Shown here one piece after another: positions 345 through 58,950 of a DNA stretch of 58,950 bases. A program made the translations under genes and the position numbers. The stretch lies in NCBI RefSeq assembly GCF_003859795.1, contig NZ_RQYI01000012.1, positions 1 to 58,950 of the forward strand. Direction: 5' to 3'. The DNA is from Alloprevotella sp. OH1205_COT-284. GTDB lineage: Bacteria; Bacteroidota; Bacteroidia; Bacteroidales; Bacteroidaceae. Positions within the stretch are counted from its first letter, which is position 1. Each line of letters opens with the position of its first letter. The notes under the pieces are model-generated. The model saw nothing but the letters and a program-made list of their open reading frames with translations, ran no database searches and was not told the origin of the DNA.

Positions 345-767
345 TGCCCTCACGCGCGCGCGTGCGCATTCCCTTTATTGAAGTTTTTAGTTTCACTGCC
401 TTCGCAAAACCTCATAACCGGCTGACTTCATGATGTTTATCTGTGAAGGCAAGTGAAGGCAAAACAAAAACGGAGTTTGCAATCCGCTGGAAAACAACGC
501 ATTGCGTCGATTTTTTGCCTTCACCACCCCCGAAAAGTGCATTTCTCGCAGGGAAGAGGCGGAAGGAGGTGAAGGCAAACCCCTTGTTTTGCCTTCACCG
601 TAGTAATGATGATTTTCAGATAGTTGCATTTCCTGAAAAATGTTTGCCTCCGCTTTGCCTTCGCAAACAAGTCGCTGCTATTCAAGACGTTGACTCATTT
701 TGCGGAGGCAAAAACGCAAAAACAACATTTTCGGGGTATATGATGCACAAAAACGGCGGTTTCATCG
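345..767 (+). repeat. Dispersed GTGAAGGCA element, copy A
   Basis: This is one of four related non-coding elements. It starts with an alternating CACGCGCGCG...CAT tract (351-369). It continues with a GCCTTCGC box (398), two GTGAAGGC boxes 10 nt apart (443 and 453), GCCTTCAC (517), GTGAAGGC (569), GCCTTCAC (591), GCCTTCGC (657) and GCGGAGGC (703). It ends with the CGGTTTCATCGA module (755-767) shared with copies B and C. Facing boxes form stem-loops. A block around TTGCGTCGATTTTTTGCCTT (503-522) matches copy D closely. It lies upstream of the rimP promoter. No frame is conserved between copies, so it is not coding. Confidence 0.8.
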
Positions 768-16316: not shown

Positions 16317-16790
16317 TTTCCGATGAAACCGCGCTTTTCGGGCGTTTTCCCACCCTGTTTTTTGTTTTTTGCCGTTTTGCCTTCGCAAAAACGCCTTTCT
16401 CTTTGACTGTCAACGTGTTCCTTGCGAAGGCAAGTGAAGGCAAACTTTTTTCGTGTATCGTAAGCTGCTGAAAAAGATGCTCTTACGGTGAAGGCAAAAC
16501 TCTCTTTTGCTTTCACCTCCTTTCACCTGTTCCGCGAGAAAACCGCCCTTTTCGAGGATGGTGAAGGCAAAAAATCGACGCAACGGGGTGACTTTCAGAT
16601 GATTGCAAAATAAAATTTCGTTTTGCCTTCACTTACCTTCGCACGAAAGTGTCAGAAAAACAGATAATTATCTCATTTTGCGAAGGCAGTGAAGGCAAAA
16701 TTAAAACACAAGAAACGCGCGCGTGCGCGCGAGGGAGGAGTTTTCGCACGTTTGCCGACGAGGCAAAATTGTCTACCTCAAAGATAGAAA
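16317..16790 (-). repeat. Dispersed GTGAAGGCA element, copy B (inverted)
   Basis: On the minus strand this copy aligns closely with copy D over about 300 nt (roughly 16486-16790 against 58354-58653). Shared blocks include GTAGACAATTTTG, the alternating GC tract (16715-16731), the paired TGCCTTCAC and TGCCTTCGC boxes, TTGCGTCGATTTTTTGCCTT, and CTCGCGGAACAGGTGAAAGG. The distal end carries the CGGTTTCATCGG module (about 16319-16330). It sits between the convergent genes kbl and comM. No consistent reading frame is shared between copies. Confidence 0.85.
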
Positions 16791-38420: not shown

Positions 38421-38946
38421 TTTCGATGAAACCGCCCTTTTTCGACGTTTTCTTACCTTATTTTTTATTTTTTGCCGTTTTGCCTTCACCGAAACGTTCA
38501 ACATCCTGAAATACAGCGAAATGTGTGCGAAGGCAAGTGAAGGCAAGACTTCTGAGAGGATTTGTAAGCGATTGAAAAACAGGGATGATACGGTGAAGGC
38601 AAAACCTTCTTTTGCTTTCACCTCCTTTCACTGCTTGCGGAGCAAAAACGCACATTTTCGAGATTTGCGGAAGAAGAAAATACAATGAAATAATTGATTT
38701 TCAGCAAACTGCAATCCGTCTTTGCATTTTGCCTTCGCTTTTTCCGTGCTTTGCCTTCACTTGCCTTCGCACACATTTCGCTGTTTTTCAGCTTGTTGCT
38801 TGTTTTTGCGGAGGCAGTGAAAGCAAAATTAAAACAAGTGACGCGCGCGTGCGCGAGAATGAGGAGGCGAAACGGATCACCGGCGGCCGAAGCTACATCG
38901 CCTCCCATGCGGAAACGACCGGCTCTGAGGTAAAGATTTTTATCTC
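38421..38946 (-). repeat. Dispersed GTGAAGGCA element, copy C (inverted)
   Basis: Read on the minus strand it has the same order of parts as copies B and D: CTGAGGTAA near 38935, alternating GC tract (38841-38855), paired TGCCTTCAC/TGCCTTCGC-type boxes, GTGAAAGGAGGTGAAAGC, TTTTGCCTTCACCG, a second double box, and a CGGTTTCATCGA end near 38421. It is more diverged than B from D and has an extra GCGAAGGC near 38731-38738. It lies between the divergent VTC and porX promoters. Confidence 0.8.
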
Positions 38947-39228: not shown

Positions 39229-39330
39229 ATGAAAAAACTTCTCATGTTCTTGTCGAGAGGATTTTGCGGCGTTTTTGTGTCTATCTTCAAAATCATGCTT
39301 TATGAGCGCAAGACTCCTTTGGGTCGATGA
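39229..39330 (+). CDS. Possible 33-aa leader peptide overlapping the porX start
   Basis: An ATG at 39229, 25 nt after the predicted transcript start, opens a 33-codon frame beginning MKKLLMFLSRGFCGVF and ending at a TGA (39328-39330) 29 nt inside porX, in another frame. It is hydrophobic and basic, like a short membrane peptide. It could be a regulatory leader or chance; no conservation test was possible. Confidence 0.3.
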   Translation: MKKLLMFLSRGFCGVFVSIFKIMLYERKTPLGR

Positions 39331-40864
39331 CGAAATCGACCTCCTCAAACCCCATTGCATCTTTCTCGAAAAGCGAGGCTATCATGTCACCACCGTTTCC
39401 AACGGCCGCGATGCGATAGACCTCTGTCGGACGGCGGTGTTCGATCTGATGCTGCTCGACGAGAACATGCCCGGTCTGTCGGGGCTCGAAACGCTCAATG
39501 CCATTAAAGAAATACAGCCGACGCTGCCGGTGGTGATGGTGACGAAAAACGAGGCGGAAGACCTGATGGATCAAGCCATCGGCGCAAAAATTGCCGACTA
39601 TTTGCTCAAACCCGTCAATCCGATGCAAATTCTTCTCACCTTGAAGAAGAACATCCATTCGCGCATCATCGTGCAGGAACAAACCGAAACGAACTACCGG
39701 CAGGAGTTTGCGCAGCTCTCCCGACAAATCGACGAGGCAAAAGATGCCGCGGCGTGGAAAGAGCTCTACAAGCGGTTGGTGCGCTGGGAGTTGCAGCTCG
39801 AAGAGAGTGCCGACGCCCCGATGAACGACATGCTTCGCCTTCAAAAAGAGGAGGCCGATGCGGCTTTTGCCAAATGGGTGAAGCGCGACTATGAGAGCTG
39901 GCTGCATGCGCCGGAAGATCCGGAGTGTCCCTTGCTTTCGCCCGATGTGATGAGGCGCGTGGTGTTTCCGCGATTGGGAAAGGGGCGGCGCGTGGTGTTT
40001 CTCGTGCTCGACAATTTTCGCTATGACCAATGGCGCGTGCTTTCGCAGGAGCTGGCCGAGGAGTTCGACATCGAGGAGGATCTGTATTATGCCATTTTGC
40101 CCACTTCCACGCAATATGCCCGAAATGCCATTTTTTCGGGATTGATGCCGCTGCAAATCAAAGAGCAATATCCCGATCTGTGGGTGGAAGAAGATGAAGA
40201 CGAGGGGAAAAACCTCAACGAAGAAGCCCTCATTGCCAAACAAATGCAGCGACATCGGCGAAAAGAAACGGTGTCGTATCACAAACTCAACGATTCGGCC
40301 GCGGTCGAAAAGCTGTTGAACAATTTTTCGGCCTTGAAGCATCATGACTTGAACGTCTTGGTCATCAACTTCATCGACATCCTTTCGCACGCACGCACCG
40401 AAAGCAAAATGGTGCGCGAATTGGCTTCCAACGAGGCGGCCTATCGTGCCATAACGCTGTCGTGGTTTCGCAACACGGCCATGAGGGAGCTGTTTCGGAA
40501 ATTGGCCGAAGACGACGCCCAAATCATCATGACCACCGACCACGGATCCATACGCGTCGATACCCCTTGCAAGGTGGTGGGCGATCGAAATGTCAATACC
40601 AATTTGCGCTACAAACTGGGCAAAAACCTGAGCTATCCCCCGAAAGAGGTTTTCGAGGTGAAAACGCCCAAACGCTTCTTGCTGCCGGCACCCAACCTCT
40701 CGACGACCTATATCTTTGCCACCGGGGCACGCTTTTTTGCCTATCCCAACAACTATAACTACTACGTACAATATTATCGCGACACGTTTCAGCACGGCGG
40801 CATATCGATGGAGGAAATGATCGTCCCCATCGTGTGTCTGCGTTCCAAACAAAATCTCGACTGA
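39302..40864 (+). CDS. porX: PorX-type response regulator with PglZ domain
   Basis: 520 aa cytoplasmic regulator of type IX secretion. The receiver domain (1-120) has the acidic pair in LLWVDDE (9-10), the phosphorylation site Asp53 in LMLLDENMPGLSG, and the conserved Lys in LLKPVNP. A helical linker leads to a PglZ alkaline-phosphatase-like domain (about 215-515) with VVFLVLDNFRYDQW, QYARNAIFSGLMP, LVINFIDILSHARTE and IIMTTDHGS, the metal-binding residues of this superfamily. Size matches P. gingivalis PorX (518 aa as I recall). No sensor kinase gene (porY) is adjacent. The start at 39302 (MSARLLWVDDE) fits the family. Confidence 0.93.
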   Translation: MSARLLWVDDEIDLLKPHCIFLEKRGYHVTTVSNGRDAIDLCRTAVFDLMLLDENMPGLSGLETLNAIKEIQPTLPVVMVTKNEAEDLMDQAIGAKIADYLLKPVNPMQILLTLKKNIHSRIIVQEQTETNYRQEFAQLSRQIDEAKDAAAWKELYKRLVRWELQLEESADAPMNDMLRLQKEEADAAFAKWVKRDYESWLHAPEDPECPLLSPDVMRRVVFPRLGKGRRVVFLVLDNFRYDQWRVLSQELAEEFDIEEDLYYAILPTSTQYARNAIFSGLMPLQIKEQYPDLWVEEDEDEGKNLNEEALIAKQMQRHRRKETVSYHKLNDSAAVEKLLNNFSALKHHDLNVLVINFIDILSHARTESKMVRELASNEAAYRAITLSWFRNTAMRELFRKLAEDDAQIIMTTDHGSIRVDTPCKVVGDRNVNTNLRYKLGKNLSYPPKEVFEVKTPKRFLLPAPNLSTTYIFATGARFFAYPNNYNYYVQYYRDTFQHGGISMEEMIVPIVCLRSKQNLD

Positions 40865-47543: not shown

Positions 47544-48545
47544 AGTTTTTTTCTTGAAATGAGCGCATTCTGTCAAGAAGATAAGGTGCTGATGCAAAAC
47601 AACGCTTTCTCCGACGAAGCCTCTGCAAACCGCCCTTGTTTTTTCGTGGTGTGGCCGAACGCACCTTTGAATGTAGGTCAAACGTGTTTTTAGGAGGGGG
47701 ATGGTTCATCGTGTGGGATTCCTTCATGATCATTTCGTAAAAACGTCGAAAAACCTACACTTTTTGTTTTATGTTGTTGGATATCAGTGGAGTGTGAGTG
47801 TAGACAGTCGGTTTGCTTATATACACTGAAAGAAGTTAAGTTCATGATGCACAGATAGAAAGGAATGTAGACAATTTTTCTCAAAACCTACTCATCCTAC
47901 ATCCTGCCTTTTATGCTGCACGATTGCGATTTCGAGCTTCTGCATGCCCCCCCCGCTCCGATGTGTAGGTTGTTGCAACGAATGTAGTTGATTTTCTGCG
48001 TTGTCTACATTCGCAACGGTTTATATATCTGTGACTTAAAAAGGATAGTGTAGACAATGTAGATAAAAAGAATAAAAAATCCCGGTAGGGGTGGAAAAAG
48101 TCGCTTTTTTACGAAAAATGGCTTCACCTCCTCTTCGGCTTGTCCGGATATGTTTTCAAGGCGTCGGAGCGTATCCTACCCAAGGAGTAGAATGAAGGGA
48201 GTAACGAGTAGAAAAATCTGCTCGTTACTTAAATTTTTCTGCATAACGAGTAGAAAACACGATCACTGACCTGCGTTCCGCAAGTTCCTGCCTTGTGTCG
48301 AGAGTTTTTTGGAGCGTATGCGGAGATAGAGAAATGTCGCTCTGTGCCCATCAAGCGAGAAAAATGTATTTTCCGTGTATCGAGTGAATATTTCGGCGAC
48401 AAACAAAAAATATTGCCCGAAACGCTTGAACAATCCAAAGAAAAGCGTATTTTTGCGCTCAAAAATAAGTTATTATCCTATTTCCACCTTCGAAATGATG
48501 AGATTTTCAGGCCATTTGCGGAGGTCGCTAAAACTTTTGTAAATT
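47544..48545. other. 1-kb gap with repeated TGTAGACAA motifs and hairpins
   Basis: No credible gene. TGTAGACAA occurs at 47866 and 48049, its reverse complement at 48001, and a near copy (TGTAGACAG) at 47799; the 47866 copy extends to GTAGACAATTTT as in repeat copies B and D. A run of eight C is at 47947-47954. GAATGTAG (47980) and CTACATTC (48005) form a hairpin with flanking GTTG/CAAC. Confidence 0.55.
48201..48257. repeat. TAACGAGTAGAA repeats with 8-bp hairpin
   Basis: GTAACGAG (48201-48208) pairs with CTCGTTAC (48221-48228). CATAACGAGTAGAAAA at 48242-48257 repeats the unit seen in tandem at 32621-32662. Located about 300 bp upstream of the DUF2795 gene. Confidence 0.6.
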
Positions 48546-58129: not shown

Positions 58130-58302
58130 GTGGATTTCAGAAAGAACATATCGTCCTCTCCGTTTCCAGCTTACGACATTTGTTTCCCCCATTTGAATAC
58201 GACGCCCCAAAAGGGGTACCCGGCTTTTGCCAAGAGTTGATGACGGGAGGAGAGAGGGGACGGAAAAGAGGAGGGGAAGGGCAGTTGTCGAATTTAGATG
58301 GG
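58130..58302. other. Gap without recognisable gene
   Basis: About 170 bp between the terminator and the tandem repeat. No gene or shared module identified. Confidence 0.4.
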
Positions 58303-58372
58303 AGGTAGAGATTTCTATCTTTGAGGTAGAGATTTCTATCTTTGAGGTAGAGATTTTTATCTTTGAGGTAGA
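58303..58372 (+). repeat. Three tandem 21-bp units, each with TATCTTTG
   Basis: Units at 58303, 58324 and 58345 each begin AGGTAGAGAT and end TATCTTTG, with one base change in the third; a fourth starts at 58366 (AGGTAGA) and runs into copy D. The unit occurs once, diverged, at the same place in copy B (about 16776-16798). TATCTTTG equals the -7 promoter consensus, but no -33 box fits. Confidence 0.85.
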
Positions 58373-58790
58373 CAATTTTGGCTCGCCGGCAAACGTGCGA
58401 AAACGCCTCCCTCACGCGTACGCGCGCGTCCCTTGTGTTTTAATTTTGCCTTCACTGCCTTCGCAAAATGAGATAATCGTCTGTTTTTCTGACACTTTCG
58501 TGCGAAGGCAAGTGAAGGCAAAATGAAATTTGGTTTTACAATCGTCTGAAAGTCATTCCGTTGCGTCGATTTTTTGCCTTCACCACCCTCGAAAGAGGCG
58601 GTTTTCTCGCGGAACAGGTGAAAGGAGGTGAAGGAAACCATGGATTTTGCCTTCACCGGTATGTTTTGATTTTCAGATGTTTATAAATTCGCTTTTCGGT
58701 TTGCCTTCACTTGCCTTCGCACGAAAGTGTCAGGAAATCAGCGATTTGGGTGATTTTGCGAAGGCAAAATGGCAAAAAACAAAATGTAGG
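58345..58790 (+). repeat. Dispersed GTGAAGGCA element, copy D
   Basis: The clearest copy. In order: GTAGACAATTTTG, alternating CACGCGTACGCGCGCGT (58413-58429), GTGTTTTAATTTTGCCTTCA, then TGCCTTCAC and TGCCTTCGC facing TGCGAAGGC and GTGAAGGCA across about 35 nt, giving a long stem. Next come TTGCGTCGATTTTTTGCCTT, a second TGCCTTCACC/GGTGAAGG stem, TTTTGCCTTCACCG, and a third pair ending GCGAAGGCAAAATGGCAAAA. It ends without the CGGTTTCATCGA module of the other copies. No shared frame, so non-coding. Confidence 0.85.
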
Positions 58791-58841
58791 GGTGAAAACG
58801 ACAGTCGGAGGCTTAAAACGGAGAGAGGGGCGGCAAGGTGA

Positions 58842-58929
58842 GAGACCTCTGCAACATCCCCTTATAAAATTGTCCAATCCGTTCTTTTTCTCGGATTGGA
58901 CAATTTTGTTTGGAAAATCCCGTGATTTT
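58842..58929 (-). repeat. Right copy of window-end inverted repeat
   Basis: Reverse complement of positions 1-88 with two differences. The 16-bp hairpin is at 58866-58881 with 58892-58907. It follows copy D by about 50 bp; at the left end the same repeat lies about 255 bp before copy A, so the two element types may belong to one larger composite. Confidence 0.85.
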
Positions 58930-58950
58930 GACGTTTCTACTCCTAAAAGG

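Follow-up and report, generated by a model that had tools for sequence, protein, structure and literature searches.

The dispersed intergenic repeats of Alloprevotella described here may be conserved nucleoprotein sites with a role in organising or marking the chromosome on its origin side, a reading drawn from sequence comparison to which we assign about even probability. The window, the whole stretch of DNA that was analysed, comprises 58,950 nucleotides (positions 1 to 58,950 of contig NZ_RQYI01000012.1) of Alloprevotella sp. OH1205_COT-284, the genome herein referred to as G000; other G numbers denote the relatives compared. By the IF-2 sequence encoded in the window, the nearest cultured records are Alloprevotella sp. 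Lung230 (77%), Prevotellaceae bacterium Marseille-P2826 (76%) and Alloprevotella sp. oral taxon 473 (75%); two MAGs come slightly nearer, S30M_Sa_48 at 78% and UBA1746 at 82% over part of the protein. The copies form a family with a common architecture and fixed internal spacings, they are over-dispersed along the genome, their boxes are conserved at orthologous loci, and the box word differs between species in the manner of a dialect.

Four copies are located in the window, at the places given for them in an earlier note on this DNA; they were re-read there and their cores were measured. The core of copy A (349..736, plus strand) lies upstream of the rimP-nusA-infB operon, and that of copy B (16352..16735, minus strand) between the convergent genes for an aminotransferase and a Mg-chelatase-type AAA protein. 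The core of copy C (38455..38861, minus strand), which was omitted from the alignments A1 and A2, is 407 bp long with an enlarged left part (136 nt, as against 115-118 nt elsewhere). Copy D (58409..58792, plus strand) is the copy named in the original finding. Copies B and D, previously described as near-identical over about 300 nt, share 82% identity across 396 bp. When up to 3 mismatches were allowed, the double box TTTTGCCTTCACTTGCCTTCGCAA gave 7 matches in the window, all inside the four copies, and none in 100 shuffles. Copy C adjoins the gene (39275-40864) for a protein that combines a response-regulator receiver domain with a PglZ domain. The contig starts (1-345) and ends (58793-58950) close to element copies, as do several other contigs of the assembly.

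The expectation that very many copies would exist in the genome was borne out. Using R1, a covariance model built on the leftmost 116 nt of the element, with matches counted at 81 bits or more over the whole model, at least 61 full-length copies were detected in the 2.305 Mb of G000; this number is a lower bound, as scoring covered 150 of the 1686 candidates, and it omits weaker places at C6:28.0 kb and C24:40.1 kb as well as partial matches at contig ends. By DNA search of the same genome (40 of 81 candidates scored), the other copies were full-length and 70-83% identical to copy D, and copies from different contigs were on average 65% identical. Of the 41 copies whose core was measured, 40 fall at 383-388 bp, the exception being copy C. 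The contigs bearing the 61 copies total 1,437,202 bp, and the remaining 868,082 bp of G000 hold none of them.

Each copy is a long dyad built of GTGAAGGCA-type boxes (T1), TGAnnnTCA sites (T2) and an alternating CGCGCGCACGCGCG run. Among the 61 aligned copies, the T1 boxes, CCTTC[AG]C or G[TC]GAAGG, stand mostly as direct pairs 9-10 bp apart and are inverted between the two arms. The four T2 sites have their centres at positions 85, 150, 272 and 337 of the consensus, in exact symmetry about position 211; the outer T1 boxes form three pairs centred on 211 too, the inner boxes do not, and the element matches its own reverse complement at 68% over 311 bp. The T1 words are strongly restricted: GTGAAGG was counted 264 times, GCGAAGG 181, GTGAAAG 118, GCGGAAG 64, GCGGAGG 40 and GCGAAAG 6 times, while GTGGAAG and GTGGAGG, found 12 and 10 times in the rest of the window, occur once each. 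T at position 2 is thus combined with G at position 4 in 2 of 675 boxes. The T2 sites, set within a CAA n5 ... n5 TTG frame, resemble two overlapping inverted sites of the type that we take to be the IHF consensus. An alternating purine/pyrimidine run of at least 13 nt was present at the left edge in 61 of 61 copies, as compared with a run of at least 12 in 0 of 302 control windows of the same cores. Within the 15 columns of this run, departures from the consensus comprised 100 transitions but 3 transversions; the 350 columns of the rest of the element had 2302 transitions and 3075 transversions. This great prevalence of transitions indicates that the alternation rather than the sequence is maintained, as a Z-DNA-prone segment would require. 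Helical phasing of the box-to-box distance was suggestive in G062 and not specific in G033, and is not claimed.

All these parts can be followed along copy D (plus strand), where the T1 and T2 elements were assigned by sequence and consensus position. The CG-rich, Z-DNA-like alternating run at the left edge (58413..58429) is followed by T1 box pair 1 (TTTTGCCTTCAC-TGCCTTCGCAAAA, 58444..58468), T1 box pair 2 (GCGAAGGCA-AGTGAAGGCAAAA, 58502..58523), a T2 site in the form CAA n5 TGAnnnTCA n5 TTG (58539..58563), and the single T1 boxes 3 (TTTTTTGCCTTCACC, 58570..58584), 4 (GGTGAAGG, 58627..58634) and 5 (TTTTGCCTTCACC, 58645..58657). Beyond these are located a further T2 site (TTGATTTTCA, 58666..58675), T1 box pair 6 (TTTGCCTTCACTTGCCTTCGCA, 58700..58721), and T1 box 7 together with the A-rich right edge (58754..58779).

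Arrays of palindromic units with a period of about 21 bp flank many copies, being of the TACCTCnGAGGTA type in the window and of the ACGTGGGAG and GCAGTAGTACTGC types in relatives; in some copies of G033 and G197 they stand inside the arms. Beside copy D, such a tandem array (21-bp period, 3.4 copies) occupies 58302..58372 on the plus strand, and units related to it are found near copies A and B as well. A fifth, diverged element with GTGTAGAC and GTCTACA boxes, absent from the earlier note, lies at about 47750..48090 (strand not assigned), some 9-10 kb from copies C and D, and falls short of the cluster rule used for sampled sequence (at least 3 boxes within 130 bp). Its box word is the word of G081, the other known G000 copies using GTGAAGG; this element may be the relic of another dialect or a member of a second, low-copy family. 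Single clusters of the GTGTAGAC type, outside the main words of the respective genomes, were also noted in G005 (L232:16668), G033 (L241:12274) and G062 (L280:7980).

The earlier note had suggested a profile search of the genome and its relatives; run with R1, it gave, in addition to the 61 copies of G000, diverged relatives in congeners and in two other genera, so that the element is not confined to this assembly. A DNA similarity search, scoring up to 10 candidates per genome, detected nothing in 36 congeners or in 24 further members of the order, and an exact 25-base word of the element had 0 matches in the assembled genome contigs searched. R1 matched 29 of 58 genomes of the genus (G000 included) at E<=0.1, with at least 31-63 matches each in G064, G005, G062 and G033 (64 candidates scored). 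At E<=1e-4 it matched 7 of 161 genomes of the family, G000 and its congeners being among the 161; two of the seven belong to other genera, G197 with the word GTGATAGCAGTGATAGCAAAA and G173 with the word CGGAGGCATCGGAGGCAAAA. Several nearly complete congeners (G004, G061 and G080) gave 0-1 weak R1 matches and 0-1 alternating runs per strand.

The box word differs among these genomes. G064 uses the GTGAAGGCA word in a shorter element, G005 uses GTGGAAG and has many copies with alternating runs at both ends, and G033 and its sister G062 share the word TTGCTTTCACAACCTTCAC and its inverse. The words met among congeners and the two other genera further include GTGTAGAGTGTAGAC, GTGATAGCA and CGGAGGCA beside GTGGAAG. 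Under the cluster rule, GTGAAGG clusters numbered 42 in G000 and 40 in G064 with no GTGGAAG cluster in either, while G005 had 18 GTGGAAG clusters and no GTGAAGG cluster, all in sampled sequence; the elements of G033 and G062, in which the boxes are set wide, mostly escape this rule. The word TTGCTTTCACAACCTTCAC and its inverse gave 84 matches in G033 (78 exact; controls 0 and 0) and 87 in G062 (73 exact; controls 0 and 0), with none in 9 other genomes. For GTGTAGAGTGTAGAC and its variants in G081, the matches were 51/51 against 5/4 for the control. Coordinated change of one word across about 40-60 dispersed sites represents an unusual case of concerted evolution. Coevolution with a putative binder might have rewritten the recognition word across all copies of a genome, an explanation that we propose tentatively and with some doubt.

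Many copies are conserved in position as well as in structure. In G064, 11 of 22 flanking-gene tests, covering 10 elements of G000, placed an element less than 1 kb from the orthologous gene on the matching side and none on the opposite side, although this control is weak, the loci being centred on elements. In G005, sampled in long stretches, the same side was occupied within 1 kb in 9 of 39 tests and the opposite side in 1 of 39, despite the different word. Between the sister genomes, both flanks of 19 of the 44 G062 elements examined fell within 1.2 kb of a single G033 element, and 11 had one flank at such an element, the other flank giving a short match elsewhere in two of these 11. One more joins the flanks of two G033 elements, one corresponds to an empty G033 site, and two map away from elements; the last 10 have no flank in the sampled G033 sequence, a sample that is itself partly centred on elements.

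For 18 orthologous pairs of G033 and G062, identity was 94.8% in the boxes (935 positions), a value inflated to some degree because the pairs were found through their boxes, and 81.8% in the outer arms, 70.2% in the interiors and 68.6% in the flanks; these totals include one pair (C10:44.9 kb) with 63% box identity that is probably misaligned. Three interiors that are 55-59% identical nevertheless keep their length within 1-2 bp. The proportion of exact boxes, 78 of 84 in G033 and 73 of 87 in G062, is far above the 19-40% that a per-site drift of 5-10% would leave exact among matches with up to 2 mismatches. We read this pattern as purifying selection acting on the boxes in place, to which homogenisation between copies could add.

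The copies also keep a minimum distance from one another, an even spacing on which the earlier note did not remark. Among 38 within-contig gaps in G000 the shortest was 9,070 bp, when random placement expects 14.7 gaps below 9 kb (0 of 20000 simulations). The 43 elements of G033 are at least 11.5 kb apart (0 of 20000, uniform placement over 436-2055 kb); this count omits a box with 2 mismatches that lies 1.5 kb from one of them. In G081, where 100 of 102 box matches were listed, 85 matches form 41 paired elements with a minimum spacing of 15.7 kb, and the 28 paired elements of contig C17 have a minimum of 18 kb (0 of 20000); these figures omit 15 matches in 14 unpaired clusters (about 9 chance matches expected), with which gaps go down to 3.6 kb. 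On three contigs of G005, no two of the 21 elements lie closer together than 7.8 kb (0 of 20000), two 2-box clusters without alternating run (C13:68.6 and C24:43.9 kb) being left aside, and over all sampled stretches of this genome 15 of 21 gaps measured 6.5-11.0 kb. For G064 the minimum was 6.4 kb among the matches listed (P=0.001). Across the five genomes the minimum spacing is thus 6.4-15.7 kb, beyond chance.

One scaffolded assembly, G033, allowed the distribution to be set against the replication axis, with the scaffold order as a caveat. In 20-kb samples (n=20), its GC skew was negative over 280-1400 kb and positive over the arc that runs from 1540 kb past the scaffold ends to 140 kb; three samples, at 1680, 2284 and 2400 kb, break this pattern (that at 2400 kb contains 4844 N). 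These signs point to a putative origin at about 1.45-1.5 Mb and a terminus at about 0.2-0.28 Mb. Counted by quarters from origin to terminus, the elements number 23:14:5:1, and for origins assumed anywhere at 1.40-1.55 Mb the counts are 21-24, 13-16, 4-5 and 1-2. Enrichment on the origin side together with depletion at the terminus, as would be expected of nucleoid-occlusion or origin-side sites, was therefore found in this genome. A strict confinement of the G033 copies to 568-2026 kb, as given by the alternating-run pattern, was rejected, since copies also occur at 437, 2055 and 2550 kb. On the 673 kb contig C17 of G062, box matches are found only beyond 556 kb.

Of the three readings that the earlier note had offered, a site for chromosome organisation or a regulatory protein fits these results best, a mobile element of MITE type has some cases in its favour (the empty site and an inversion described below), and a structured RNA is weakly supported. 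The symmetry, the fixed internal spacing, the conservation of the boxes, the hard-core spacing of copies and the origin bias are together consistent with a nucleoprotein site involved in organising or marking the origin-side chromosome, and we infer bound proteins, a Z-DNA transition and an organising function, as well as the coevolution of box and binder. A putative sequence-specific protein would bind the T1 boxes, which stand as direct pairs about one helical turn apart in an inverted set, and a DNA-bending protein of the HU/IHF kind would probably occupy the palindromic T2 sites between them. The CG alternating run would provide a supercoil-sensitive, Z-DNA-prone edge, and the bound parts could fold together into a dyad-symmetric complex. 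Holding a minimum distance of about 6-16 kb, depending on the genome, and crowding near the putative origin where one scaffold allows the test, the copies would most likely act as points of anchoring or occlusion, set at even intervals along the origin-side chromosome. If so, they constitute a directly testable set of anchor points. A vital organiser of this kind would have to be replaced in the near-empty genomes G004, G061 and G080, or be present there in an unrecognised dialect.

A more specific form of this proposal, possible yet in our judgement doubtful, is that of a self-spacing chromosome ruler, in which large palindromic sites with Z-DNA-prone edges would keep a species-typical minimum distance, be graded from origin to terminus and carry a coevolving recognition word. 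Taken whole, and with the same reserve, it might be seen as a bacterial parallel to the fast-evolving motifs of centromeres or recombination hotspots.

The copies could instead be MITE-like non-autonomous transposons with ends in the style of Mu or Tn7, in which the T1 boxes would be transposase sites, the T2 sites would bind a bending protein, the interior would be dispensable, the spacing would be the footprint of target immunity and the box word would track the transposase of each species; we regard this as unlikely. In G033 the conserved inverted boxes enclose a variable interior and stand 114-671 bp apart, which is the form that it predicts, and the hard-core spacing in five genomes is in line with it. 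At one place an element of G062 (C18:24.3) is absent from G033 (L241), although no target-site duplication was readable there, the intergenic flank being too diverged for the ends to be read. Two inverted elements of G033 at 1204.3 and 1215.8 kb (L242), 85% identical, bound a segment of 11.5 kb, and the G062 element that joins the flanks of two G033 elements, together with the right flank of its neighbour, indicates that this segment was inverted between the species with its ends at the copies; the flank at the fourth junction had no match and the position of the crossover could not be placed. Four neighbouring elements of G062 (C14, 76-126 kb) have box-to-box distances of 268-270 bp, and the breakpoints of a second rearrangement, relative to 1680-1696 kb of G033, seem to fall at two of the C14 elements.

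Nearby copies also resemble one another more closely than permuted pairs do. Pairs of G000 copies within 30 kb of each other (42 pairs) had an identity of 0.681 against 0.653 after permutation (0 of 5000 permutations), and 5 of 7 pairs above 80% identity share one contig, 11-53 kb apart, so that copies do spread or convert locally. Spacing, local copying and the empty site would thus also fit transposon derivatives with target immunity. On the other side, box conservation in the orthologous copies, at 95% in the boxes against 70% in the interiors (with the ascertainment noted above), would not be expected of dead non-autonomous derivatives and argues against them, as does the persistence of positions between distant congeners. 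No autonomous element was seen, Y1 transposases being the only ones sought. The Y1 transposase (PF01797) had 0 matches in the element-rich genomes G000, G005, G033 and G062, for which reason a REP/RAYT system was rejected; it was found in 10 of 20 genomes searched, including the element-rich G064 and G081 (weakly) and the element-poor G004 and G080. In viral contigs, two scans with 20- and 21-base words gave nothing and a 15-base word gave 19 single matches, which were read as chance; a blastn search of plasmids and phages with the G197 sequence gave no match. With these few queries no copies appeared in the viral, plasmid and phage collections, which counts against transposons, and an origin from phage, plasmid or virus was likewise rejected. 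A domesticated transposon end serving as a chromosome site would satisfy both readings, and a mobile family would itself have left, across entire genomes, a natural record of how target immunity acts.

An inter-operon element for regulation or transcription ending, bound by a global regulator, is in our estimate improbable. As the earlier note had remarked, the copies sit in every kind of gap: a crude codon-usage script called the genes on both sides of 53 of the 61 G000 copies, and of these gaps 17 were convergent, 11 divergent and 25 tandem. Convergent and divergent gaps together make up 28 of 53 at the elements against 47 of 178 adjacent gene pairs of the same loci, an excess in its favour; however, no gene orientation dominates, the window neighbours are unrelated to one another and mostly housekeeping genes, and neither regular spacing nor an origin bias would be expected of a regulon. 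The copies share no reading frame, as had been claimed: in six-frame translation, any given frame was open for at least 100 codons in at most 6 of the 61 copies. Some frame of this length was open in 17 of 61 copies (28%), compared with 5% in mononucleotide shuffles, and 14 of 61 cores overlap an ORF scored as coding by the crude codon-usage caller.

A structured non-coding RNA gene or leader in many copies is very improbable, for even though the boxes are able to pair as stems of 7-11 bp, the covariation is too weak, the arms of the G033 copies are by eye not complementary outside the boxes, and the element is near-palindromic and found in all gene contexts. The covariation analysis that had been suggested gave, with RNAalifold, -44.6 kcal/mol, of which the covariation term was a small -0.76. 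Changes on both sides affected 5 of 48 pairs; the cells concerned numbered 18, as compared with 9.7 for shuffles, of which 2 of 500 attained that count. This excess is weak, and the paired structure came from the same alignment on which it was tested. No catalogued RNA family was matched, Rfam giving none at gathering score over the whole window; the seven entries matched at E<=1 all fell far short of their gathering scores.

To our knowledge, nucleoid organisation has been little studied in the group to which Alloprevotella belongs. The ends of Mu/Tn7-type transposons carry protein sites, DNA uptake sequences are single short words present in very many copies per genome, and the sites of SlmA and Noc are single short motifs. 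In transposons of the Mu/Tn7 type, insertions are excluded next to an existing copy by target immunity (PMC7350765); unlike at their ends, neither a transposase (among the Y1 type sought), nor cargo, nor a duplicated target was seen here, and the boxes are conserved in place. REP sequences are extragenic palindromic repeats in many copies, with alternating orientation in BIMEs (PMC2817692), whereas the present element is far longer, evenly spaced and written in a word that differs per species. The BrickBuilt MITE of Porphyromonas gingivalis is intergenic and species-restricted, with 19 copies in ATCC 33277, and consists of a short 23-nt tandem array with leader and tail and IS-like TIRs (PMC4596501). 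By that description it differs from the present family in the inverted box core, the 61 copies, the spacing and the dialects; no head-to-tail repeat of 23 nt was found at the copies, the tandem repeats there being those of 21 bp in 3.4 copies at the flank of copy D and a 10-bp box in 2 tandem copies at copy A. The DNA uptake sequence of Neisseriaceae is a word dispersed genome-wide that differs between related species (PMC3630211), but in the present family the word forms part of complex intergenic elements, about 40-60 in number. The extracts of literature compared (including PMC4596501 and PMC4117426) describe no regularly spaced, position-conserved and origin-graded elements with dialects. 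A further likeness is to the SlmA (SBS) and Noc (NBS) sites, dispersed chromosomal sites for a DNA-binding protein, which in the present case is putative; the NBSs are scattered around the chromosome (PMC4331003). In contrast to these, each Alloprevotella copy is a multi-box dyad of 280-390 bp with bending-type sites and a Z-like edge, held at a strict minimum spacing and written in the dialect of its species.
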